From Euzebya tangerina (GTDB lineage Bacteria > Actinomycetota > Nitriliruptoria > Euzebyales > Euzebyaceae): a DNA stretch of 64,000 nt. The notes under the pieces were generated by a model. The model did no database searches, was not told where the DNA came from, and saw only the letters and a program-made list of their open reading frames with translations. The stretch is taken from positions 1,550,001 through 1,614,000 of the forward strand of contig NZ_PPDK01000001.1 in NCBI RefSeq assembly GCF_003074135.1. Direction: 5' to 3'. Made by a program: the position numbers and the translations under genes. Positions 25,538 to 57,718 of this stretch are shown in pieces (the stretch's first letter is position 1; each line of letters starts with the position of its first letter).

Positions 25538-25572
25538 CATCCGGGTTACGCGCTGCCATGCTTGTGGCTCCA

Positions 25573-25595
25573 GCAGCCGGGTAAGGCCGGGCTGC
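25573..25595 (+). other. Leader hairpin before the CWB2 exoprotein gene
   Basis: GCAGCC at 25573-25578 pairs with GGCTGC at 25590-25595, with two more G-C pairs inside and a short loop, 32 bases before the chosen start. No U-run follows, so a terminator for the upstream gene is not supported. It does not match a riboswitch consensus that I can recall. Confidence 0.35.
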
Positions 25596-25627
25596 ACCCG
25601 CAGTCCATGCGCCCTCGGGAGGGGTCC

Positions 25628-27739
25628 TTGACCACGTCACGCCGAACACGTCCGCTCGCAGTCATCGCGCTGCTCACCGTGTTGGCCACCGCCGCCGCCA
25701 TCCTGGGTCTGGCTCAGCCGGCCCAGGCCGAGATCGTCAGGCTGGCGGGGGCGGGCCGCGCCGAGACCGCCGCGTTCGCGTCCGGCGAGACGTTCGGGCC
25801 CGGTCTGCCGATCGTGGTCGTGGCCTCTGCCGTCGACTTCCCGGATGCGCTCGCCGGCGCGAGTGTGGCCGGCAGGTTCGGCCCCGTTCTGCTGACGGGC
25901 GTCGACTCCGTGCCCGACGCCACCGCGTCAGAGCTCGGCCGCCTGGCGCCGGAGCGCGTGGTGTTGCTGGGCGGCACAGCGGCCATCAGCACCGAGGTCG
26001 AGCAGGAGCTCGCGCTGATCTCGCCGACTTCGACGGTGGAACGGATGGGCGGTGCCACCCGCATCGCGACCGCGGAGCAGATCGCGGAGCAGACCTTCCC
26101 CGATGGCACCGAGACCGTGATCATCACCTCGGGGGCGGACTTCCCCGATGCTGTCGTCGCCGGCCCGCTCGCGGCCGGGACACCCGCGCCGATCCTGCTC
26201 AGCAACCCGGACGGGCTGCTCGACAGCACGCTGGCGACGATCGCGCGACTGGAGGCTACGGACGCCATCGTCGTCGGCGGGCCGGCGGTGTTGGACCTGG
26301 CGGTGGAGGAGCAGCTCGTGGCCGCCGGTCTCGATGTCGTGCGCGTGTTCGGCGAGAACCGCTTCGAGACCGCCGCGGCGTTGACCTCGGTTGTCCCGCA
26401 GGCCGAGTCCGTCCTGCTCGCGACCGGGGAGGCCTTCCCCGACGCGTTGTCGGGGGGACCCATCGGGGCCGCGCGGGGTGCGCCACTGCTGCTCACGGGG
26501 TCCCAGACACTGGCCGAGCCGGCCCGGTGTGAGATCGCCCGACTGCGGCCGGATCGCGTGCTCATCCTCGGCGGGCCGAGCGCCGTCTCGGAGGAGGTGG
26601 CCGAGCAAGCTGAGCAGGCACGGACCAGCGAACCCTGCGCCGAGCCGACCGAGCCGACCGAGCCGACTGGTCCGACTGAGGGGCCGACCGAGGAACCCAC
26701 CACCGACCCGACAGTCGAGCCCACCGTCGAGCCGACCGACGAACCGACCGACGAACCAACCGAGGAGCCCACGGCAGAGCCCACCGAGGAACCGACCCCT
26801 GATCCCACCGTCCCCCCGCTGGAGGAGCCGGTCAGCCTGTCGATCACGACGGGACCGATCGCCGATGTCGTCACCGCGACCTCGGGCCAGGTGGCGTACG
26901 CCTCCAACGCCGGGCGGAACCAGGTCGAAGTCGTCGACCTGGCAACCCGCGAGATCACGGACAGCGTGCCGACCGGCTCACTGCCGGCAGGCATGGACCT
27001 GACGGTTGATGGCGCGGAGCTGTGGGTCGCCAATGCCGGCGGCAGCAACTTCACGGTGATCGACACCGCGACGCTCAACCGGCGCACCGTCCAGGTCGAC
27101 GTGGCCGATGGCACCCGCCCGCTCTCGATCGTGATCGTCGACGCGACCACGGCCCTGTTCACCACGACCTTCGACGGCAGCGGATTTGGGGGTCGGATGT
27201 ACGAGTTGGATCTGACGACCGGTGCGGTCGTCATTCGGACGGACTACGGGGTCCGGGGTGAGACCACGCAGGCGACAGTGCTGGCCCGGTCAGCCGACCG
27301 AAGCACGGTTGGCGTCGTCGAGGGCGGCAGCTCGGGTGGCCGGGTCAGCGTGTACACCACGGCTCAGGATGCCTTCACGGCTGATGCGCAGACTCGTGGA
27401 TTCAGGGACACCATCGCCGTCAGCTCGGACGGGAGCCGGATCCTGGTGGGCGGCAGGACCGCTGAGACGCTGGTGCTCGACAACTCGGCGGGACTGCTCG
27501 GGACGATCACCGGCGCCGGTGGGGAGGACGTCACCGTCGACCCGACTGACCCGAGCCGTGGCTACCGCGTGAGCGACGGCGGCGTCATCGTCCTCGACCT
27601 GGACCGCTACCTGGTCGAGGGGGATGCCATCCCGGTCGAGGACGGCGTCGTCCTGGCGATGACGCCCGACGCCGGCATCATCGTCGTGGGCGGCGCCGAG
27701 TCGGTGGATCTGCTGCCGCCGGCACCGGAGCGCGGGTAG
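25628..27739 (+). CDS. Secreted protein: three CWB2 repeats, PT-rich linker, beta-propeller
   Basis: The 703-residue product has a signal peptide (about residues 1-34, ending QPAQA) and three cell-wall-binding type 2 repeats (about 35-335), each with a PDALSG/PDALAG- or PDAVVAG-like motif and a VVLLGGTAA / AIVVGGPAV / VLILGGPSA strand. A linker of about 60 residues made of Pro-Thr-Glu/Asp steps follows, then a YVTN-type beta-propeller (about 405-700; VAYASNAGRNQVEVVDL, LWVANAGGSNFTVIDT). It is likely wall-anchored and exposes the propeller. I chose TTG 25628 because GGGAGGGG lies just before it; ATG 25607 has no such site. Confidence 0.88.
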   Translation: MTTSRRTRPLAVIALLTVLATAAAILGLAQPAQAEIVRLAGAGRAETAAFASGETFGPGLPIVVVASAVDFPDALAGASVAGRFGPVLLTGVDSVPDATASELGRLAPERVVLLGGTAAISTEVEQELALISPTSTVERMGGATRIATAEQIAEQTFPDGTETVIITSGADFPDAVVAGPLAAGTPAPILLSNPDGLLDSTLATIARLEATDAIVVGGPAVLDLAVEEQLVAAGLDVVRVFGENRFETAAALTSVVPQAESVLLATGEAFPDALSGGPIGAARGAPLLLTGSQTLAEPARCEIARLRPDRVLILGGPSAVSEEVAEQAEQARTSEPCAEPTEPTEPTGPTEGPTEEPTTDPTVEPTVEPTDEPTDEPTEEPTAEPTEEPTPDPTVPPLEEPVSLSITTGPIADVVTATSGQVAYASNAGRNQVEVVDLATREITDSVPTGSLPAGMDLTVDGAELWVANAGGSNFTVIDTATLNRRTVQVDVADGTRPLSIVIVDATTALFTTTFDGSGFGGRMYELDLTTGAVVIRTDYGVRGETTQATVLARSADRSTVGVVEGGSSGGRVSVYTTAQDAFTADAQTRGFRDTIAVSSDGSRILVGGRTAETLVLDNSAGLLGTITGAGGEDVTVDPTDPSRGYRVSDGGVIVLDLDRYLVEGDAIPVEDGVVLAMTPDAGIIVVGGAESVDLLPPAPERG

Positions 27740-27783: not shown

Positions 27784-28758
27784 CTATTCGGAGGACAGCA
27801 GGGTGCGGGCCGACCGGAAGAACACGGCGGCTGCCTCGACCTGATCCTCGGCGGCCAGGAGCTGGTGGAGGGTCAACGCGGCACCGCCGAACGGGGTCGA
27901 CCAGAAGGGTCCCTCCTGGGTGGTCCAGGGCGCGACGTAGAGGTAGGGCTCCCCGACGGCGTCGTCGCCCGGCGAGGCGCCGAAGCTCGCCCGCGTCCCG
28001 GCATCGGCATCGCCCAGCTCGATGGCCGGGTCGAAGTGCTCCGGCCACAGCTGGACCCGGGTGTCGGAGGGGCGGCCCGCAGCGTCCCGCAGGAGCTCGA
28101 GGACCAGGGTGCCGAACCCGAACCAGCTGTCCAGGAAGCCCACAGCCTCGGCGTCGACCGTGAGGGGCTCATCCAGCGCCGGGATGGACGGCATGTCGTG
28201 GAAGTCGATCCCCTCCGGCGCACCTGGCTCGACGTCGACGAACCGGCCGGCTGCAGCCAACGTCGAGATCGGCTCGGACTGCACCGTGTCGCCGACCTGG
28301 ACGACCAGGTCGGTGCCCTCAACCCGGACCTGCCGATCGTCGGCGAAGAACGGGGTGCCGAACCCGCCCTTGGTCCAGCGCAGCCCGATCTTGCCGGTGT
28401 GCTGGTGCCGCACGGTGGCGATCACCGTGAACGCCAGTGCCGTCAGCGCTGACCGGGTGGCCTCCAACGTGGTCGGCGCCGGTCCGACGCGGGCCACGCC
28501 ACCGAGCCAGTGCGTGCTGGCCCACTCGCCCAGTTCCGGCCGCGCGACGACCACTTCGTCCCAGGTCGACCCCGCTGCCGAGGTGGGGCCGACACTGCCG
28601 ACGCGCCCGTCGTCGTCGGTGGGGACGGTGGGGTCGTCGGCGAACCACGGGCCGACGTCGACGGCTGGCGCTGAGGGTTCCAGGACCAGTCCCAGGCGTC
28701 CGTCGCCCAACCGTCGGGTTGCCTCGGCCTGCGGGTTGCGTGCAACGGGGTCGGTCAT
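27784..28758 (-). CDS. Conserved protein of unknown function
   Basis: I do not recognise this 324-residue protein with certainty. It has no signal peptide or membrane segment. The second half has a WPEHFDPAIELG segment followed by FGASPGDDAVGEPYLYVAPW, a pattern I associate with uncharacterised actinobacterial proteins. The first half contains RLGDGRLGLVLEP and a GLRWTKGGFGTPFF strand. ATG 28758 follows GAGGAG. It converges with the CWB2 gene and stands alone; no operon partner is visible. Confidence 0.7.
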   Translation of the reverse strand: MTDPVARNPQAEATRRLGDGRLGLVLEPSAPAVDVGPWFADDPTVPTDDDGRVGSVGPTSAAGSTWDEVVVARPELGEWASTHWLGGVARVGPAPTTLEATRSALTALAFTVIATVRHQHTGKIGLRWTKGGFGTPFFADDRQVRVEGTDLVVQVGDTVQSEPISTLAAAGRFVDVEPGAPEGIDFHDMPSIPALDEPLTVDAEAVGFLDSWFGFGTLVLELLRDAAGRPSDTRVQLWPEHFDPAIELGDADAGTRASFGASPGDDAVGEPYLYVAPWTTQEGPFWSTPFGGAALTLHQLLAAEDQVEAAAVFFRSARTLLSSE

Positions 28759-28891
28759 CACATCTCCTCTGTCCGGCTGGCCGCCGAATTCGACACGATC
28801 GTGCAGAAACCCCCGATGGCGTGGGTTGGGCCCCGATCGTGCACCATCCGGGCGTCGCGGCCAGGGCGGCTCGGCGTGGTGGCGGTAGCGA

Positions 28892-30889
28892 TCACAGCAG
28901 CTCGACGTCGGTCACGATGTGGACCAGCGCCGGCCCGTCGAGCGCCACGGCCTCGCGCAGCGCCGGCTCCAACTCCGCCGCGGTCGTGACCCGCCACGCC
29001 CGCACGCCGCAGCTCTCGGCCATCGACACCCAGTCGGGGTTGACCAGGGACGTCTGCCACACCGGCCACTCACCAGCCCGCTGCTCCTTGCTGATCTTGC
29101 CCAACTCCTGATTGTCTAGCAGGACGTGGCAGATCGGCATGCCGTACTTGCCGATCGTGGTGAGCTCCATCGCGTACTGACCCAGGCCACCATCGCCCGA
29201 TACGGAGATCACCTTGCGGGTGTCGCCGACCGCCGCGTAGGCGCCCATCGCACCGGGGAGCGCGAACCCGATCGAGCCGAGGTACCCCGACATCAGGACG
29301 TCCTGACTGCCGGAGGTCTCCAGGTACCGCCCGAATGAGTAGGTGTTGTTCCCCACGTCGACACTGAAGACCGCGTCGGCCGGGGCCGTCCGCCCAAGCG
29401 CCTCGAAGACCGCCGCCGAGTTCACGCCCTCGCCCTGGTCATCCCGCCGACGGCTGGCCTTCTCCTCCCGCCAGATCGCCCAGCGCTCCGCGACCTCAGC
29501 ACGATGATCCACACAGCGGATGTCGTCGGGCAGGCGGTCGCGGATGACCGATGCCGTGGTCCCGACGTGGCCGAGCAGCGGCAGGTCAACCGGGTGATAG
29601 CGGCCGAGGCCCTGCTGGTCCAGGTCGACCTGGATCGTCGGCTTGTAGTCGGCGATCCCGGTGTGGTTCGAGAAGGAGGCGCCGAACACCACGAGGAGGT
29701 CCGACTCGTTCATGAACCAGCTGGCGATCGGGGTCCCCGATCGTCCGAGGACGCCGCACCCGAGCTCGTGATCGTCCGCCACCAGGCCCTTGGCCTTGAA
29801 GGTCGTCAGCACCGGTGCGCCGATGGTCTCAGCCAGGCCCATCACCTCGGTCATCTGCCCGCGAGCTCCGGCACCGACGATGATGACCGGACGTTCGGTG
29901 CCGGCGATCATCTGCACCGCCCGGTCCACCTCGGCCAGCGGTGGGTGGACCTGCGGCGCGCCGACCCGGCCCTCGGGGCCGCGGGGCTCGGCGTCGGGTG
30001 CGGGGTGGGTCTGGACCTCGTCGGGGAAGGAGAGGTGGACGACGTCCCGCTCGACGATGGCCGTCTTGGCAGCTTTGGCGGCGAGCTCCGCGACGTCGGA
30101 CCCGGCCACGATCTTGGCCTGATAGCGCGCGACGTCGCTGAAGGCCGTCGTCAGGTCCAGGTCCTGGAAGGCACCCTGCCCGGCAACCGAGGAGGGAACG
30201 AGACCGGAGAGCGCCACCACCGGCGCGCGGTCGACCTTGGCGTCGTACAAGCCGGTCAGCAGGTTGGTCGACCCCGGACCAGCAATCCCGAAGCACCCGG
30301 CGATGCCGCCCGTCAGCTTGCCGTAGGCACTGGCCGCGAAGGCCGCGGCCCCCTCATGGCGGATGCCGATGAAGGTCAGGTCACCTCGCTCTTCGGCGAC
30401 CCGCATGGCGTCGGCCAGGCCGAGGTTGGAGTGCCCCACCATCCCGAAGACGTGGGTCATGCCCCACGCGATCAGGGTCTCGATCGCGATGTCGGCCACG
30501 GTGCGCTCCCGCTCGGCCGGGAGAGGCAGCGCCGCGTACACGCCGTCATCGCGCACCTCCACCCGGAAGGCTGCCGGGGCGTCGCCGAACGCGCTGGGTG
30601 GAACGCCGTTGCAGGGGGAGTAGTCGTACCCGTGCCAGGGGCACCGCAGCCAGCCCTTCTCGATCGAGCCCTCGCCGAGTGGACCGCCCTGGTGCGGACA
30701 GTGGTTGTCGAGGACCCCGAACCCGTCGTCGCTTCTGGTGACCGCGTACGTACGGTCCTCGATGGCGACGGTGGTCACGCGGCCGACCGGCAGCTCGTCG
30801 GTTCCGATGATGCGGTGCCACTCGAAGGGGCCGTCCGGCAGGTCCGGCGCCTCGGTCGACGGTGTCTCGGCGGCCGCATCAGACGTCAT
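28892..30889 (-). CDS. Rieske [2Fe-2S] domain fused to a ThDP-dependent enzyme (pyruvate oxidase/acetolactate synthase type)
   Basis: Residues 20-120 form a Rieske domain with Cys64-x-His66 (CPHQGG) and Cys83-x2-His86 (CPWHGYDY). From about residue 128 a complete ThDP enzyme follows: N-terminal Pyr domain with the catalytic Glu in GIRHEGAAAFAA, a central Rossmann-like domain (PVIIVGAGARGQM), and a C-terminal PP domain with the ThDP/Mg motif SGDGGLGQYAMEL...LLDN. The total of 665 residues equals a 110-residue Rieske plus a normal 550-residue enzyme. The Rieske may pass electrons from the ThDP intermediate. ATG 30889 is preceded by AGGG. Neighbours give no substrate. Confidence 0.88.
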   Translation of the reverse strand: MTSDAAAETPSTEAPDLPDGPFEWHRIIGTDELPVGRVTTVAIEDRTYAVTRSDDGFGVLDNHCPHQGGPLGEGSIEKGWLRCPWHGYDYSPCNGVPPSAFGDAPAAFRVEVRDDGVYAALPLPAERERTVADIAIETLIAWGMTHVFGMVGHSNLGLADAMRVAEERGDLTFIGIRHEGAAAFAASAYGKLTGGIAGCFGIAGPGSTNLLTGLYDAKVDRAPVVALSGLVPSSVAGQGAFQDLDLTTAFSDVARYQAKIVAGSDVAELAAKAAKTAIVERDVVHLSFPDEVQTHPAPDAEPRGPEGRVGAPQVHPPLAEVDRAVQMIAGTERPVIIVGAGARGQMTEVMGLAETIGAPVLTTFKAKGLVADDHELGCGVLGRSGTPIASWFMNESDLLVVFGASFSNHTGIADYKPTIQVDLDQQGLGRYHPVDLPLLGHVGTTASVIRDRLPDDIRCVDHRAEVAERWAIWREEKASRRRDDQGEGVNSAAVFEALGRTAPADAVFSVDVGNNTYSFGRYLETSGSQDVLMSGYLGSIGFALPGAMGAYAAVGDTRKVISVSGDGGLGQYAMELTTIGKYGMPICHVLLDNQELGKISKEQRAGEWPVWQTSLVNPDWVSMAESCGVRAWRVTTAAELEPALREAVALDGPALVHIVTDVELL

Positions 30890-30979
30890 GAGCGCCCTAT
30901 CACACCCTCGATCATCCGATCTGTCCACCGGCAGGTGGTCGCTGATCTCGTCCTGGGCGACACTGGCCAGGTGACTGCC

Positions 30980-31507: not shown

Positions 31508-34500
31508 TCACCGCTCCGCGATCGCGTCGAGGGTGGCACGCAGTTCGGCCGCGACGTCAGCGGTCACCGCCCGCTCGCCACCGATGATCCGCACCTGGGT
31601 GACGCCGAGCTCCTGAAGTGCGCGGATGGTGTCGGCCGGCAGGACGTCCGGCTCGGTCAGCAGCACCGGCGTCCCGGTCAGCGCGGCCACGGGCGCGATC
31701 GCCAGCCCGTCGGGGAATGCGCGGCCGGTGGCGACGAATGCCGAGACCGAACGGCCGAACGGCTCCATGGCCACGGCCGCGGTGGCGAACCGGTTCTCAC
31801 CGGCACGTCGAACCACACTGTCCACGCCGGGCTCGTCCGCAAGTGCTGCGGCGACATCCTCGCTGATCGCTGCCGTTCCCCCGAGCAGCTCGACCGTGAC
31901 GGTCCGGCCATCGAGATACGCCGTCAGCTCGGCGGGAATGGAGTCGGAGTTGGTCAACAGGATCGGACTGCCACGCCACCCGGCGACCGCGCCTCCCGTC
32001 AGCGCGTCGGGGAAGTCCGCTCCGGTCGCCAGGTAGATCCGGTCGGCGGACGGCAGAAAGCGATCAGCCAGGGCTGCCGCAGTGGCGAAGCGGTTGGACC
32101 CGAAGACCCGGTCGACGAACGCGTCGGGCGCCGCCTCCCTGATCTCCTCGATCACCGGGTCCTCGATCACGGCGGCTCCGCCGATCACCGTGACCCGCCG
32201 CGGCTGCAGTCGCTCCAACTCCGCGGCCGTGGCCGACGGCAGGGCGGTACGCCCGGCCAGGAGGATCGGGGCGCCGACCGCGGCGGCCGCAGGGCCGGCG
32301 GTGAGCGCATCGGGGAAGTTCTCCCCGGACGCCACGAACACGTGCTGGGCCCCGGCCGGCCACTGCAGCCGCGAGATCGACGCCGCGGTCTGGTACCGGT
32401 CGTTGCCAGCCGTGCGCTGCAGGACCACCGACTGCTCCGGCACCGGGGCGGTCTGAACCGTGATGGAGGCCCGATCAAGTAGCTGACGGACCTCCTGGTC
32501 GTCCCGTCCCGCCACCCCGTACAGGCTGATGACGTGTTCTCCTGGTGACAGGTCGGCTGCAGCGACGCCGTCGGACTGCAGGATCCGTCCGTCGACGTCG
32601 GACGCCCACTCCACCCGATGGGTCGGGGCGTTGCTGGTCGACTCGGCGCTCAGTGGGATGATCTCGCCGTAGGTGTAGGTGCTCGAGTCGACCGGGTCCA
32701 CGATGGTCCCGGCCACCCACGGTTGGTCGGATGAGACGTAGTCGAGTGTGATCAGGTCCGCGTCAGTCCGGATGCCGTCGGAGGCGACGACGCGGACGCG
32801 AACGACGGCGTCGGTCCAGGTGAACGACGACAGGTCCAGATCGAGCTGGTTCGCGGTGATGCCCGCCGCCACAGGGATCCAGACGTCCTCCGGGCGCACG
32901 AGCACGTCGTAGGACAGCGCGTCACCGTCGTCGTCCGTCGCCTCCCAGGTCAGGTTCAACGGGCCGGTGACCTGACCGCTGACATCCGTGGTGATCTCGA
33001 TCTGCGGTCGTGACGGCGACACGGCGACCTCCGAGACCACAGCGCTGTCGGCCAGGTTCACGACCTGGATCGTGTGTGCCGCGCCCTCGCGGAGACTCGT
33101 CGGAAGCCCGACGGCGATGGGGTCCTGGCTGACCGACTCGGGATCGCTGGCCGGGCCGAGTGTGCCGTCGTCGAAGAGCAGCGGAACACCGGGTTCGCCG
33201 CGCAGGTCGACGTCGAGTTGGGCGATCGGCTCGGGCTCACCGTCACGGATGATGTCGATCCGGTGGGTCGGGTCGCTCGGGGCGGCGACGGCGGTCGGGC
33301 GCGGCCGGAGGTCAGCCACCTCGAGCGCGTCGCCGTCGCGCCCAGGCGTGATGGCGATGCTGTCGCCGAAGTCGACCCGCAGTTCGACGTCCTCGCCGAC
33401 GATCCGGTTCCACTGGGCGCCACCCAGCCACTGGGTCGGCGCGAAGGCCCGATCCGGCGCGCCGCAGTACCCCATGAGGTTCGGCATCGTGCTGCGGGGC
33501 ATGACCCCTCTGATGGCCGTGCCGGGGCTGCTGCCGGTGTGTCCCCAGAAGCCCGCGCCGTCCCCATCTGGCCCCAGGGCCGCGACGTCTCGGCCGTCGA
33601 TCGTCACCGTGTCGGGCCACTGGTCTGCGGCAACGGCGCCACAGGGGTCGGCGAAGCGCTCCCCGTCCTCGGCGGTGGCGGCGTGCGGCAGGCCCAGCGA
33701 GTGACCGATCTCGTGCAGGTGGACCAGTCGGGTCTGGAACGCCGCTCCGGCCGAGGTGGCCGCGTCGAATCCGTTGGCGCGCCCGCCGATCCCCGGGATG
33801 TCGAACAGGCCATAGACGACCGTCGACTCCGGATCCTCGGTGACCCGCCACTGCTGCTCGATCGTCAGCGCGAGGATGTCGCCGAGCAGGTCCCGGTGGG
33901 CGTCGACCTGGCCATCGCGGCGGGCCTGCACGAACTGATCGAACTCGTCCTCATCGTCCGCGGGGTCGTCAACCAGACCCATCGCGACGGCATCGACGGC
34001 CGCCGTCCGGGCGGCGTCGCGTGCGTCCAGGTACTCGGTGGCGTCGTAGCTGCGGGCGGACTCGACGTAGGACCACCTCCGCAGGTCGAACGGCAGTCCG
34101 CGCCGCGCCCACGCAGCCAGGACTGCGGCTGCCGCCGATGCCTCGCGGGGGTCGGCCTCGAAGACCACCTCCTCGCCGGCGTCGGTCTGCCGCACCACAT
34201 CGGTGCCGATGAACACGATCTCGCGCTCGAAGCGCTGCGGTGTCAGCGTCACCTCGCAGTCGGCATCGATGTCCAGGCAGCTGACCTGCCCGGAGGCGGG
34301 AACGAAGCGAACGGTCACCTGACGGCCGTCCCGCAGGTCGGTGGCCAGCACGTGGAACTCGAGCGCCGCCGCTCGCAGCTCCGCAAGGGATGCATCGGGG
34401 CCGAGGTTGCTCGCGCTGCCGCCCGCTGGACCGTACTCCCGGATGAGGGTGCCGTCGGCCTCGCGCAACTCCAAGCGTCCCGTCCACTCGCTGATGCCCG

Positions 34501-35341
34501 CGCCGGCGTGCCCGGTCACCCGGACCATGGCCCGCTTCCCCGCGACCAACGCGGCGTCATTGGCCAGGTTCTGCACGCCCTGATTGACCTCGATTCCCTC
34601 CACATCGATCGAGGGCGTGAAGCAACCGTCAGCCACCGAGGAGGGGATGACACCCCGGTTGGTGGTCGCCGTGAACCCACCGCCGCCGAAGACGAGTGGC
34701 CCGTACTCGGCGGCCAGCTCCTCGACGGAGTGCCGACTGTCCTCCGCCGCGACCACCGAGAAGCGATCGGCGCCGGCGTCGACCAGGAAGTCCACCGACG
34801 GGACGGTCTCTCCCTCGACGTTCTCGATCCCGTCCGTCAGCAGGCACACCGTCGTCTCGGTCGCGGCGCCGCCGTGGGAGACCGCTTCGGCCGCGCCACG
34901 CAGGCCGGCCGTCACGGGGGTCGACCCCTCCGTCTGGGCATGCCCGCGGACGACGGCACCGATCTCGGCCGCGTCATCCTCCGTGTCCAGCAGTCGGTTC
35001 GAGACGATCTCCTGGACCAGCGGCACCTCCGATCCCACGGCGCCCGGCCCGGTGAAGACCACGACGGAGACGGCAGAGACGCCCAGGGGCAGGTGGTCGC
35101 GGCGACGCAGGGTGACGTCGACACCGCGGGTGATCGCCCGCCACTCCACCGGCGTGACGGACCGGGACGCATCGAGGACGAACACGACCTCTCGCTCCGG
35201 CGCTGCCTCCTGGCTCGGCTGTGCGCGACCGGGGCGGGCTGGGGTCAGCAGGCTCGTGAGCAAGCCGGCGAGCAGGACCCAGACGACCGCGGGGCGGTGG
35301 GACGTCCGGCGTGGTCTCCCCCTGGTGTTGGCAGCCGTCAT
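31508..35341 (-). CDS. Large secreted VWA / metzincin-type protease / CWB2 protein
   Basis: The 1277-residue protein has a signal peptide (about residues 1-40), a von Willebrand A domain (about 48-215; VVFVLDASRSV MIDAS strand, TTVCLLTDGIENV), a long middle region with HEIGHSLGLPH near residue 543, the HExxHxxGxxH zinc site of metzincins, Ig/cadherin-like repeats (about 805-905; ATDDDGDALSYDV), and three C-terminal CWB2 repeats (about 985-1270; PDALTAGPAA, PDALTGGAVA, PDGLAIAPVA). It is probably a cell-wall-bound adhesive metalloprotease. It contains few Cys residues. It is transcribed alone; its stop is 15 bases from the converging lipoprotein gene. Confidence 0.88.
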   Translation of the reverse strand: MTAANTRGRPRRTSHRPAVVWVLLAGLLTSLLTPARPGRAQPSQEAAPEREVVFVLDASRSVTPVEWRAITRGVDVTLRRRDHLPLGVSAVSVVVFTGPGAVGSEVPLVQEIVSNRLLDTEDDAAEIGAVVRGHAQTEGSTPVTAGLRGAAEAVSHGGAATETTVCLLTDGIENVEGETVPSVDFLVDAGADRFSVVAAEDSRHSVEELAAEYGPLVFGGGGFTATTNRGVIPSSVADGCFTPSIDVEGIEVNQGVQNLANDAALVAGKRAMVRVTGHAGAGISEWTGRLELREADGTLIREYGPAGGSASNLGPDASLAELRAAALEFHVLATDLRDGRQVTVRFVPASGQVSCLDIDADCEVTLTPQRFEREIVFIGTDVVRQTDAGEEVVFEADPREASAAAAVLAAWARRGLPFDLRRWSYVESARSYDATEYLDARDAARTAAVDAVAMGLVDDPADDEDEFDQFVQARRDGQVDAHRDLLGDILALTIEQQWRVTEDPESTVVYGLFDIPGIGGRANGFDAATSAGAAFQTRLVHLHEIGHSLGLPHAATAEDGERFADPCGAVAADQWPDTVTIDGRDVAALGPDGDGAGFWGHTGSSPGTAIRGVMPRSTMPNLMGYCGAPDRAFAPTQWLGGAQWNRIVGEDVELRVDFGDSIAITPGRDGDALEVADLRPRPTAVAAPSDPTHRIDIIRDGEPEPIAQLDVDLRGEPGVPLLFDDGTLGPASDPESVSQDPIAVGLPTSLREGAAHTIQVVNLADSAVVSEVAVSPSRPQIEITTDVSGQVTGPLNLTWEATDDDGDALSYDVLVRPEDVWIPVAAGITANQLDLDLSSFTWTDAVVRVRVVASDGIRTDADLITLDYVSSDQPWVAGTIVDPVDSSTYTYGEIIPLSAESTSNAPTHRVEWASDVDGRILQSDGVAAADLSPGEHVISLYGVAGRDDQEVRQLLDRASITVQTAPVPEQSVVLQRTAGNDRYQTAASISRLQWPAGAQHVFVASGENFPDALTAGPAAAAVGAPILLAGRTALPSATAAELERLQPRRVTVIGGAAVIEDPVIEEIREAAPDAFVDRVFGSNRFATAAALADRFLPSADRIYLATGADFPDALTGGAVAGWRGSPILLTNSDSIPAELTAYLDGRTVTVELLGGTAAISEDVAAALADEPGVDSVVRRAGENRFATAAVAMEPFGRSVSAFVATGRAFPDGLAIAPVAALTGTPVLLTEPDVLPADTIRALQELGVTQVRIIGGERAVTADVAAELRATLDAIAER

Positions 35342-54753: not shown

Positions 54754-56013
54754 CTAGGAGCGGGCCAGGCGCCGGAGGTCGACGGTGGGGTCGGCGGCTT
54801 GCTCGGCGGTCAGGGATGCTCTCGCTCCGATCGCGGCCTGCGCCCCCTTGATGATCCGGCCGACCGCCCGTCCACGGGAGATCCCGGCGGCGGCCACGAT
54901 CCGACCGTCTGCCAGACCGATCGACACGAGTGCGTCCTCCAGCCTGGCGGGATCGCCGCGGTCGACCCACGTGTCCACGTGGTCTGGCCAGCCGGTCGCC
55001 TGGACGGTGAGGTCGTACTGGTCCGACCAGGACCAGGGGACCTGCTCGTACGGGCTTGCGTTGCCGGCCAGGGCGGCGGCAGCGTGCTGCCCCATGGCCA
55101 TGGCGTCGGTGTAGGACTCGGTCCGCACCGATGAGCCGTCCGCCGCCCGGACCCGGGCGACATCCCCGATGGCCAGGATGTCCGGGTGGGAGGTCCGGAG
55201 CTGGTCGTCCACCAACACGCCGTCGTTCACCGCCAGCCCCGCAGCCTCGGCCAGCGCGGACCGGGGACGGGCCCCGGTGGCGATCAGGACGTGCTCGCAG
55301 GCCACCAGCGTCGTCTCGGCCCCCGCGTGGTCCCGGCCGGTCACCCGCAGCCGCCCATGGTGCGCCTCGATGGTCTTCGGCTGCACCGCGAGACGGACGT
55401 CGACACCGGCAGCCCGGTGCTCCTCGAGCAGGGGGGCGACCACGGCAGGTGGCAGCACCCGGGCCATGGGTCTCGGCGTTGCCTCCAGGACGGTCACGCG
55501 GCAGCCGCGCTCAGTCGCGACCGCTGCGACCTCGAGGCCGATCACGCCCCCGCCGACGATCGCCAGATCGGTGCTGCCCTCGCCGAATCGGCGACGAAGC
55601 GCCACAGCATCCGCGGCGCGGCGGAGCACGGAGACCCCCGGCAGCGCCGCCCCCTCGATGGGTGGGACCCACGGCTCCGCCCCGGTTGCCAGGACGAGTG
55701 TCCCGAAGCCCACCGGCGATCCGTTCGCCAACTCCACGACGTGACGGTCAGGGTCGATTCGGTCCACGCGAGTCCCGGTTCGCGTGACCGGCCCGACCGC
55801 GTCGGCGAACAGCGGCGGCGGTGTCGCCGACGGGTCGGCCAGCATCCCCTTGGACACCACCGTCCGGTCGTACGGCGGCAGGTCCTCCTCGGTCAGGAGC
55901 ACGACCGAGCGGGCGAAGCCACCTGTGACCAGGCGCATGACCATCGTGGCGGCGGCGGGTCCACCACCGACGACCACGACGTCGTGGTGGTCGGCGTCAC
56001 GTGCGCCGCTCAA
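54754..56013 (-). CDS. Ferredoxin reductase-type FAD oxidoreductase (BphA4/HcaD-like)
   Basis: The 419-residue protein has VVVVGGGPAAATMVMRL (FAD), LPPYDRTVVSKGML, TLVLATGAEPWVPP, LAIVGGGVIGLEVAAVATERGC (NAD), ILAIGDVAR, and a C-terminal reductase domain with PWSWSDQYDLTVQATGW. This family passes electrons from NAD(P)H to a Rieske or [2Fe-2S] ferredoxin; a Rieske ferredoxin gene lies at 56787. The TTG start at 56013 overlaps the stop of the SDR gene (TTGA), so the two are coupled. Confidence 0.87.
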   Translation of the reverse strand: MSGARDADHHDVVVVGGGPAAATMVMRLVTGGFARSVVLLTEEDLPPYDRTVVSKGMLADPSATPPPLFADAVGPVTRTGTRVDRIDPDRHVVELANGSPVGFGTLVLATGAEPWVPPIEGAALPGVSVLRRAADAVALRRRFGEGSTDLAIVGGGVIGLEVAAVATERGCRVTVLEATPRPMARVLPPAVVAPLLEEHRAAGVDVRLAVQPKTIEAHHGRLRVTGRDHAGAETTLVACEHVLIATGARPRSALAEAAGLAVNDGVLVDDQLRTSHPDILAIGDVARVRAADGSSVRTESYTDAMAMGQHAAAALAGNASPYEQVPWSWSDQYDLTVQATGWPDHVDTWVDRGDPARLEDALVSIGLADGRIVAAAGISRGRAVGRIIKGAQAAIGARASLTAEQAADPTVDLRRLARS

Positions 56014-56729
56014 CTGGTGGCCGCCCCGTCCACGGCGATCGTGGCTCCCGAGACGTAGGAGGCCGCGTCGGAGAGCAGGAAGACGATCACCTCCGCGATC
56101 TCGCCCGGCTCGGCCCACCGGCCGAGCGGGATCGTCCGCGTCACGCGCTCGGCCGCTGCTTCGTCCACCTCGCCGACCATCGGCGTTCGGGTGCCGCCGG
56201 GGCACACGGCGTTGATCCGCACACCGGCGGGCCCGTACTCGCGGGCGGTCGATCGCGTGTAGGACAGCACCGCCGCCTTCGACGCCGCGTAGGGCGCCAA
56301 CCCTGGGCGGCCACCGAACGCCGCGTTGGAGGCGACGTTGACGATGCTGCCCTGGCCGGCCTGCACCATGTGCGGCAGGACCGACTGCATCGTCGTCACG
56401 ACTGCATGGGTGTTGACCGCGGTGGTGAGGTCGATGGCCTCGGGCGGCTGATCAACCAGCTTCGGTCCGGCCGAGCCCAACGTGCCAGCGCAGTTGACCA
56501 GGCCGTCGATGCGGTCGAACACCGCCATCGCGCCCGTCAACGTCCGCGCGACCGCCTCTCGATCGGTCACGTCGACCACGGCGGAGCGATGCGGTTTGGG
56601 TGCCTCGCTGTCGGCCCGGTCCCACGAGATCGTGGTCGCACCCCGTTGACGGAGCAGCTCCACCGTGGCCTGCCCGATGCCGGAGGCACCACCGGTCACC
56701 AGCACCACACGATCGCTCCACTCGCTCAC
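56010..56729 (-). CDS. SDR oxidoreductase (FabG/cis-diol dehydrogenase-like)
   Basis: The 239-residue classical SDR has VVLVTGGASGIGQATVELL, a VNCAGTLG loop, a catalytic YAASKAA motif, and VRINAVCPGGTRTPM, ending in ASYVSGATIAVDGAATS. It probably oxidises an alcohol or dihydrodiol with NAD. It is coupled to the ferredoxin reductase gene and divergent from the ferredoxin gene, in a set that resembles a ring-hydroxylating dioxygenase system without its terminal oxygenase. Confidence 0.88.
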   Translation of the reverse strand: MSEWSDRVVLVTGGASGIGQATVELLRQRGATTISWDRADSEAPKPHRSAVVDVTDREAVARTLTGAMAVFDRIDGLVNCAGTLGSAGPKLVDQPPEAIDLTTAVNTHAVVTTMQSVLPHMVQAGQGSIVNVASNAAFGGRPGLAPYAASKAAVLSYTRSTAREYGPAGVRINAVCPGGTRTPMVGEVDEAAAERVTRTIPLGRWAEPGEIAEVIVFLLSDAASYVSGATIAVDGAATS

Positions 56730-56748
56730 CGGGCACCTCCGCTGTACG

Positions 56749-56762
56749 TTACTGAACAGTCA
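56749..56762 (+). promoter_or_regulatory. Candidate TetR operator, copy 2
   Basis: TTACTGAACAGTCA lies in the 57-base divergent promoter between the SDR and ferredoxin genes. It matches the site at 47264 at 11 of 14 positions, and also contains the perfect palindrome ACTGA-ACAG-TCAGT (56751-56764). The TetR gene is second in the rightward unit, so autoregulation is expected. Confidence 0.5.
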
Positions 56763-56786
56763 GTCAGTGACCGGACAGGAGTCGGG

Positions 56787-57119
56787 ATGGAGCGCACAAG
56801 CGACACACACCACCGCGTCGAAGGCGGTGCCGGCATGGCGCCGGGCGACGTCAGACTGCTCGAGGTCGGCGTCCACCGCATCTGCCTGGCTCGCACCGAG
56901 GCCGGTGAGGTCTTTGCCGTCGACGACACCTGCACCCACGAGGACGAGCCGCTCTCCGAGGGATGGGTCGAGGGTGACTGCATCGAGTGCCCGGCCCACA
57001 ACTCGACCTTCGACCTGCGCACCGGAGAGGCGCTGATGCTCCCCGCGGTCGATCCGGTGCGGACGTACCCGGTCACGGTCGACGGTGACGACCTGGTCGT
57101 CGAGCTGCCGGGGGCGTGA
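56787..57119 (+). CDS. Rieske-type ferredoxin (non-heme oxygenase component)
   Basis: The 110-residue protein is a single Rieske domain with Cys49-Thr-His51 and Cys68-Pro-Ala-His71. It has the length of BphF-like ferredoxins that feed ring-hydroxylating oxygenases. AGGAG precedes ATG 56787. Its reductase is encoded divergently at 54754; no oxygenase alpha or beta subunit is found in the window. It overlaps the TetR gene by 4 bases. Confidence 0.9.
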   Translation: MERTSDTHHRVEGGAGMAPGDVRLLEVGVHRICLARTEAGEVFAVDDTCTHEDEPLSEGWVEGDCIECPAHNSTFDLRTGEALMLPAVDPVRTYPVTVDGDDLVVELPGA

Positions 57120-57718
57120 CCGTGTCCGACGAGGGTGGGGGTCGCTCGCAACGCAGCGAGCGGGAGCGGCAGATCATCGAGGTGGCGACGTCGCTGTTCC
57201 GGCGGAAGGGCTACCACGTCACCTCCCTCGAGGATCTCGCCGAGGCGATCGGGTTCACGAAACCGGCGATCTACTACTACTTCAACAGCAAGGAGGACAT
57301 CCTCTTCACCATCGTCGACGGGATCGTCGAGCAGGCCCTCGAGCGGACCACCGCCATCGCCGAGGGGGACGGTACGGCCGGCGAGCGCCTGCACCAGCTG
57401 CTGGTCGCGAACACCGGCGTGCTGCTCGAGAACCTGGATGCCAACACCGTCTTCTACAACGAGCGCGGGCTGCTCACCCCTCAGCGCGAGGCGGCGATCC
57501 GGGCACGCGAGCGGGAGTACACCGGCGTCGTCCGGGCGCTGTACGTCCAGGGGGTCGAGGACGGGGAGTTCATCGACATGGACCCGGCGGTGGCGACCGC
57601 GACCCTGCTCGGGGCCTCGATCTGGAGCTACCGCTGGTTCGATCCGGACGGTTCGCTCTCCATCGACGAGATCGCCGTCCAGATCGCCGACCTGCTGCTG
57701 GGTGGGCTGCGCCGCTAG
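57116..57718 (+). CDS. TetR-family transcriptional regulator
   Basis: The 200-residue protein has an N-terminal HTH (IIEVATSLFRRKGYHVTS, IGFTKPAIYYYFNSKEDIL) and a helical ligand-binding domain of the type that often controls acyl-CoA metabolism in actinobacteria. The start may be GTG 57116, overlapping the ferredoxin stop, or GTG 57122. Candidate operators lie before its own unit (56749), between the carboxylase and dehydrogenase (59552) and before the SDR at 47297. An acyl-CoA ligand is likely. Confidence 0.9.
   Translation: MTVSDEGGGRSQRSERERQIIEVATSLFRRKGYHVTSLEDLAEAIGFTKPAIYYYFNSKEDILFTIVDGIVEQALERTTAIAEGDGTAGERLHQLLVANTGVLLENLDANTVFYNERGLLTPQREAAIRAREREYTGVVRALYVQGVEDGEFIDMDPAVATATLLGASIWSYRWFDPDGSLSIDEIAVQIADLLLGGLRR

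Follow-up and report, generated by a model that had tools for sequence, protein, structure and literature searches.

A Rieske domain fused to a thiamine diphosphate enzyme of Euzebya tangerina as a probable built-in electron outlet

Thiamine diphosphate (ThDP) enzymes of the pyruvate oxidase (POX) fold are known to pass electrons to oxygen or membrane quinones; in PoxB, the electrons reach the membrane quinone through a C-terminal peptide. A gene of Euzebya tangerina that joins a Rieske [2Fe-2S] domain to an enzyme of this kind raises the question of what the cluster does there. A preliminary description of the locus had taken both parts of the protein to be intact and had suggested that the cluster could be an electron outlet, or else have a structural or redox-sensing role. 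The gene lies in the window analyzed here, the whole 64,000 nt stretch from position 1,550,001 to 1,614,000 of the forward strand of NZ_PPDK01000001.1 (GCF_003074135.1), to which coordinates given without a locus name refer.

An uninterrupted fusion gene and its relatives

The fusion is encoded by a single open reading frame with the following features.

28892..30889 (-): Rieske-ThDP fusion, 665 aa, uninterrupted, with ATG at 30889 and TGA at 28892
30605..30823 (-): Rieske [2Fe-2S] domain, residues 23-95 (Pfam PF00355, 8.1e-14)
30692..30700 (-): Cys64-Pro-His66, predicted first pair of cluster ligands, invariant in both alignments (12 and 67 rows)
30632..30643 (-): Cys83-Pro-Trp-His86, predicted second pair of cluster ligands, likewise invariant in both alignments (12 and 67 rows)
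30155..30502 (-): TPP_enzyme_N (pyrimidine) domain, residues 130-245 (Pfam, 5.4e-30)
29552..29929 (-): TPP_enzyme_M (central, dinucleotide-site) domain, residues 321-446 (Pfam, 5.6e-31)
28916..29359 (-): TPP_enzyme_C (diphosphate-binding) domain, residues 511-658, with the GDG...N motif (D566, N593) (Pfam, 1.6e-32)

All four Pfam scores of the window protein lie above the gathering cut-offs, and the one 665-residue frame with its Rieske and three TPP_enzyme domains bears out the view that both parts are intact. GC3 is 0.89 and 0.91 in the two parts, similar to that of neighboring genes. An alternative in-frame GTG at 30928 would make the protein 13 residues longer. Scans for promoters and terminators found nothing.

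A scan of genome contigs recovered at least 560 relatives, of which the best 80 are all full-length Rieske-TPP fusions matched over most of the query. Chosen as the top matches, these 80 loci do not make up a random sample. By record title they include Actinomycetota, Acidobacteriota, Cyanobacteria (among them the isolates Xenococcus sp. PCC 7305 and Leptothoe kymatousa), Bacteroidota and Planctomycetota, as well as Gammaproteobacteria, Myxococcota, Nitrospirales, Dadabacteria and Poribacteria. Genome samples from the organism's own phylum contributed 11 more full-length fusions, 54-72% identical. Five records are plasmid-borne, one from Mycobacteroides abscessus subsp. bolletii and the others from four haloarchaea; they are 55-59% identical, and each is annotated only as 'thiamine pyrophosphate-binding protein'. 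Because of an in-frame stop, locus L081 was left out of the motif counts; the remaining 79 loci and the window gave 80 proteins, all with C-X-H...C-X2-H ligands. The ligand loop ranges from 12 to 40 residues and has the usual 15-20 residues in 71 of the 80. The ligands C64/H66 and C83/H86 had thus been numbered correctly. In viral contigs no relative was found, as none of 19 pattern matches was confirmed.

That a sequencing or assembly error fused two genes, as the preliminary description had considered, is excluded for all practical purposes by full-length homologues elsewhere. The identical architecture recurs in unrelated contigs, in isolates (Xenococcus sp. PCC 7305, Leptothoe kymatousa and Nocardioides marmorisolisilvae) and in annotated plasmids, which refutes such a reading, and no point in its support was found. 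Among open-licence papers, no description of a Rieske- or rubredoxin-ThDP enzyme fusion was found. PMC12746152 describes a Rieske dioxygenase and a ThDP decarboxylase as separate proteins, an arrangement different from the present fusion.

Fold and active site of the ThDP part

The nearest solved sequences to the ThDP part are E. coli PoxB and the pyruvate oxidase of Lactiplantibacillus plantarum (LpPOX). An AlphaFold2 model based on 67 aligned homologues (mean pLDDT 90.5, pTM 0.87) has LpPOX (1pox) as its top Foldseek match (3.3e-43), and a second structural aligner gave Z scores of 42.4 for HKA synthase, 42.3 for PoxB and 41.1 for Corynebacterium glutamicum PQO. As these three lie within about one Z unit, the fold does not settle the reaction. 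The protein misses all listed NCBIfam cut-offs, both for the pyruvate oxidase equivalogs (PRK08611, 369.8 of 742 bits; PRK09124, 305.6 of 792; spxB, 299.6 of 637.85) and for acetohydroxyacid synthase (TIGR00118, 271.6 of 538.35), and its best-scoring model is a pyruvate oxidase. It has no Pfam family of PFOR/OFOR, and only TPP_enzyme domains (Pfam) follow the Rieske domain in place of the ring-hydroxylating catalytic domain of a Rieske non-haem oxygenase.

Active-site columns were read across 126 aligned ThDP regions.

30431..30433 (-): His153, signature of the Rieske clade, in 88/88 Rieske and 2/2 CDGSH-Rieske rows
30353..30355 (-): Glu179, equivalent of the presumed ThDP-activating Glu (PoxB E50, LpPOX E59), Glu in all aligned rows
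30164..30169 (-): Phe241-Gln242, pocket pair common to PoxB and LpPOX by alignment columns
29096..29098 (-): Lys598, signature of the Rieske clade at the position of PoxB F465 and LpPOX F479, in 87/87 and 2/2 rows
29084..29086 (-): Glu602, equivalent of LpPOX E483, in 87/87 and 2/2 Rieske rows

Several features expected of a pyruvate oxidase like PoxB are present, namely the three TPP_enzyme domains, the ThDP Glu and the GDG...N motif (E179, D566, N593). Gln242 is common to the pyruvate oxidases and Phe241 to many of them, while Glu602 also occurs in 5/5 rubredoxin rows, 27/29 unfused rows, PoxB and LpPOX. Two other features are lacking. Lys598 replaces the Phe that presumably sits between ThDP and FAD, and the chain end aligns to PoxB residue 531 of 571, so that the C-terminal membrane-binding peptide is missing. 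Lys598 is found in all 87 Rieske rows with a letter there (1 gap) and both CDGSH-Rieske rows, with M, N, L, Q, F or A elsewhere. His153 is found in none of the 5 rubredoxin or 29 unfused rows and is absent from PoxB and LpPOX. Ile540 is similarly specific to the Rieske clade (87/87 rows with a letter and 2/2), nearly all other rows having Met.

Because Lys598, His153 and Ile540 are specific to the Rieske clade, the enzyme may catalyze chemistry other than pyruvate oxidation, and we leave its substrate unnamed. Pyruvate had been considered as the substrate from an adjacent malic enzyme; this was dropped, since the malic enzyme adjoins only 3 of the 80 best-matching loci (of at least 560), all Roseivirga, and the clade-specific residues urge caution. 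The preliminary assignment to a full pyruvate-oxidase/acetolactate-synthase type thus holds for the fold and goes no further, given the missed NCBIfam cut-offs and a Lys598 and His153 unlike PoxB and LpPOX.

Exchanged carriers and recurrent neighbors

The nearest own-phylum ThDP matches without a Rieske domain (L018-L020, L026 and L027) include five with an N-terminal rubredoxin, read from Cys-X2-Cys...Cys-X2-Cys; Pfam Rubredoxin scored 6.9e-10 in L180 and 2e-5 in L183. Two further loci encode longer fusions.

L185:7000-9765 (-): CDGSH-Fer4_19-CDGSH-Rieske-TPP in a single ORF of about 900 aa (Pfam)
L186:7538-10180 (-): CDGSH-Fer4_19-CDGSH-Rieske-TPP in a single ORF of about 900 aa (Pfam)

In a careful phylogeny of 55 ThDP regions, for which the Rieske rows were sampled and LpPOX and two long own-genome rows left out, all 27 Fe-S-fused rows split from all 28 unfused rows at 100/100 support. 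A quicker tree made earlier from 73 rows gave the same split with support of 95. Apart from PoxB (and, in the 73-row tree, LpPOX), the unfused rows belong to a single phylum, so a wider sample could alter the details. The rubredoxin rows did not group as one clade, and a single clade was not rejected (p-AU 0.28). In family f9 (L180:1550-5161 and L182), a transketolase-like gene, and not a Glu_synthase fusion, comes after the one for rubredoxin-ThDP.

The carriers recur on a second enzyme family. At least 30 of the 80 best-matching fusion loci (of at least 560) have, within 6 kb, a protein homologous to a Rieske-Glu_synthase (FMN) fusion, in most cases encoded immediately upstream in the same orientation. 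For 22 of the 30 neighbors the Rieske motif was read in the sequence itself, and the rest were cut by contig ends or unclassed, save one with a different carrier.

L073:672-2288 (+): CDGSH-CDGSH-Glu_synthase fusion beside a Rieske-ThDP gene (Pfam domains)

On two haloarchaeal plasmids, too, a Rieske-Glu_synthase is encoded near the Rieske-ThDP fusion. In two own-phylum genomes (L183 and L184), a rubredoxin-Glu_synthase gene comes directly after the rubredoxin-ThDP gene, and CDGSH-Fer4_19 is encoded alongside (by Pfam for L183). The neighboring Glu_synthase proteins vary over the same three carriers, Rieske, rubredoxin and CDGSH. Among about 392 own-phylum genomes, 10 encode the Rieske-ThDP fusion, 7 the Rieske-Glu_synthase and 5 both (Fisher p 7e-8, from hand lists over samples of 396, 396 and 392 genomes and with relatedness ignored). 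In a Glu_synthase tree, made by a quick search with long branches and with 6 of 62 rows left out (three contig-end fragments and three distant), the rubredoxin and Rieske versions are adjacent. The branch uniting all Fe-S-fused rows, which includes L198, labeled unfused, has an SH-aLRT of 94 and is not starred.

No Glu_synthase fusion lies within 6 kb in 50 of the 80 best-matching loci (of at least 560). As many contigs are short and hold less than 6 kb on both sides, the neighbor counts are lower bounds. Rubredoxin-like N-termini occur on the Glu_synthase proteins of four f39 genomes (L190-L193, from G228, G099, G110 and G088) that are not among the ThDP matches at the threshold used, so the pair is not obligatory. 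Other neighbors in the same 80 are a Na+/H+ antiporter (7 loci) and an FMN reductase-like protein (6 loci). A ferric-reductase-TM-Rieske protein lies within a few kb of the fusion in L088, L097, L110, L117 and L125, and full-length homologues were found in 10 of 36 genomes searched.

L110:2358-3386 (+): Ferric_reduct TM domain with a C-terminal Rieske domain (Pfam), the membrane part weakly like MsrQ
L088:6544-7608 (-): Ferric_reduct TM domain with a C-terminal Rieske domain (Pfam)

The ferR profile was discarded as a neighbor marker, having matched every Rieske domain (80/80 loci).

Genome searches found neither a Rieske-Glu_synthase nor a ferric-reductase-Rieske protein in the E. tangerina genome. 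The fusion gene is accompanied by the following gene.

27784..28761 (-): DUF5996-like downstream neighbor, 325 aa, with a WP-X-HFD motif, co-directional, gap of 130 bp

It is single copy in its own genome, and by an iterative profile 25 of the 80 best-matching fusion loci (of at least 560) have a homologue no more than 6 kb away. Its tie to DUF5996 runs via that profile and the homologue in L108, which is a Pfam DUF5996 protein (1.9e-38). The window protein itself falls below the threshold for PF19459, with no family at E 0.1, and Pfam found no DUF5996 in its genome. A model of the protein (pLDDT 77.3) matched no PDB entry at E < 0.001 and so gives no function, and no paper naming DUF5996 was found among open-licence papers. 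Large cell-wall-binding-repeat-like surface proteins, named by eye, flank the fusion and its neighbor at 25562-27739 (+) and 31508-35341 (-). Some 26 kb from the fusion, the region 54754-57718 may hold a separate Rieske ferredoxin and reductase pair: a reductase-like ORF (54754-56205, -) and an SDR (56010-56729, -), both named by eye, a small Rieske-type stretch with a Rieske match inside a longer frame (about 56874-57101, +) and a TetR-like regulator, also named by eye (57116-57718, +).

A proposed electron outlet and its alternatives

Rieske and rubredoxin domains have unrelated folds and share one-electron transfer. Given their occurrence in the same place on one ThDP lineage, and a flavoenzyme with the same carriers, electron transfer is the best explanation. 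We consider it fairly likely that the fusion is a soluble POX-fold oxidative 2-oxo-acid decarboxylase, or a related ThDP oxidoreductase, in which the Rieske [2Fe-2S] domain is a built-in one-electron outlet. ThDP, activated by Glu179, would attack the 2-oxo acid and CO2 would be released, as the conserved residues suggest. The enamine/carbanion would then be oxidized, probably via a flavin in the central domain, and single electrons would pass to the Rieske cluster at C64/H66/C83/H86 and from there to a partner outside the protein. This partner is likely the neighboring Fe-S-fused FMN glutamate-synthase-type protein in many lineages and perhaps, in others, the membrane protein resembling a Rieske-ferric-reductase. 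The Rieske domain would thereby replace the membrane/quinone outlet of PoxB.

The same domains could instead belong to a non-oxidative carboligase or decarboxylase of the acetolactate synthase kind, with the Rieske or rubredoxin as a redox or oxygen sensor gating activity. AHAS-type models also match, both centers are redox-active and the clade-specific residues leave the chemistry open. However, the top NCBIfam model is a pyruvate oxidase, and a sensor does not explain why the Glu_synthase neighbor, an oxidoreductase, has the same exchanged carriers; we regard this reading as unlikely. Electrons could also flow inward, the Rieske domain feeding the ThDP site for reduction of a 2-oxo acid or acyl group, as Rieske ferredoxins are normally electron donors, the neighboring Glu_synthase domain is of a reductase type and the window has the small Rieske-type frame and reductase-like ORF at 54.7-57.1 kb. 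Against this, the closest relatives, PoxB, LpPOX and PQO, are oxidative and most loci are without a reductase domain or conserved reductase neighbor, which makes inward flow improbable. A fusion by itself does not demonstrate electron transfer, and the Fe-S domain might be mainly a docking or structural module. That role, also raised in the preliminary description, becomes very improbable when two unrelated folds fill the same place, CDGSH is added, metal ligands are kept throughout and the common trait is one-electron chemistry.

Given the above, the exchanged N-terminal carrier is probably the enzyme's electron outlet. This part of the preliminary description is clearly favored by the carrier exchange in one ThDP clade, the same three carriers on the neighboring Glu_synthase protein and a likeness to one-electron ferredoxins. 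Together with the absence of a PoxB-type C-terminal peptide, the first two lead us to prefer an outlet, with some confidence, over sensing, inward flow and docking. A bolder and much more tentative possibility is that the ThDP enzyme and the Fe-S-fused FMN glutamate-synthase-type enzyme form a previously undescribed electron-coupled pair, in which 2-oxo-acid oxidation, via interchangeable Rieske, rubredoxin and CDGSH modules, would directly power a reaction of the reductive amination type, with no need for NAD(P)H or free ferredoxin; both partners would have had their connector exchanged. If an outlet is correct, POX-fold enzymes in bacteria and archaea would have a further route for electron disposal, a one-electron carrier that is built in and exchangeable. 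Because one enzyme core occurs naturally with rubredoxin, Rieske and CDGSH, a series that the neighboring flavoenzyme mirrors in part, carrier exchange is directly testable.

Electron transfer from ThDP to Fe-S as such is already known from the 2-oxo acid:ferredoxin oxidoreductases, in which electrons leave hydroxyalkyl-ThDP through Fe-S. The fusion family is like PFOR/OFOR in this ThDP and Fe-S logic but differs in its domain families, having a POX fold with Rieske, rubredoxin or CDGSH whereas PFOR/OFOR have [4Fe-4S] clusters. With PoxB (3eya/3ey9) and C. glutamicum PQO (9ev3-9ev6) it shares the three-domain ThDP fold over residues 128-665 and the Glu/Phe/Gln/Glu active-site set, and an oxidative outlet is expected; however, identity is 27-28%, and the fusion has an N-terminal Rieske domain, His153 and Lys598 for PoxB F465 and is without the membrane-binding tail of PoxB. 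Equivalents of LpPOX E59, F121, Q122 and E483 are kept, but F479 is a Lys, an Fe-S domain is added and O2 is not implied as the acceptor. The nearest solved sequences to residues 1-130, CarAc (1vck, 2.4e-9) and T4moC (1vm9), have the same ligand motif but are separate one-electron Rieske ferredoxins that feed oxygenases, whereas here the Rieske domain is fused to a ThDP enzyme. The FMN glutamate synthase domain (GltB) fusions have the same N-terminal carriers as the ThDP fusions but on another enzyme family.
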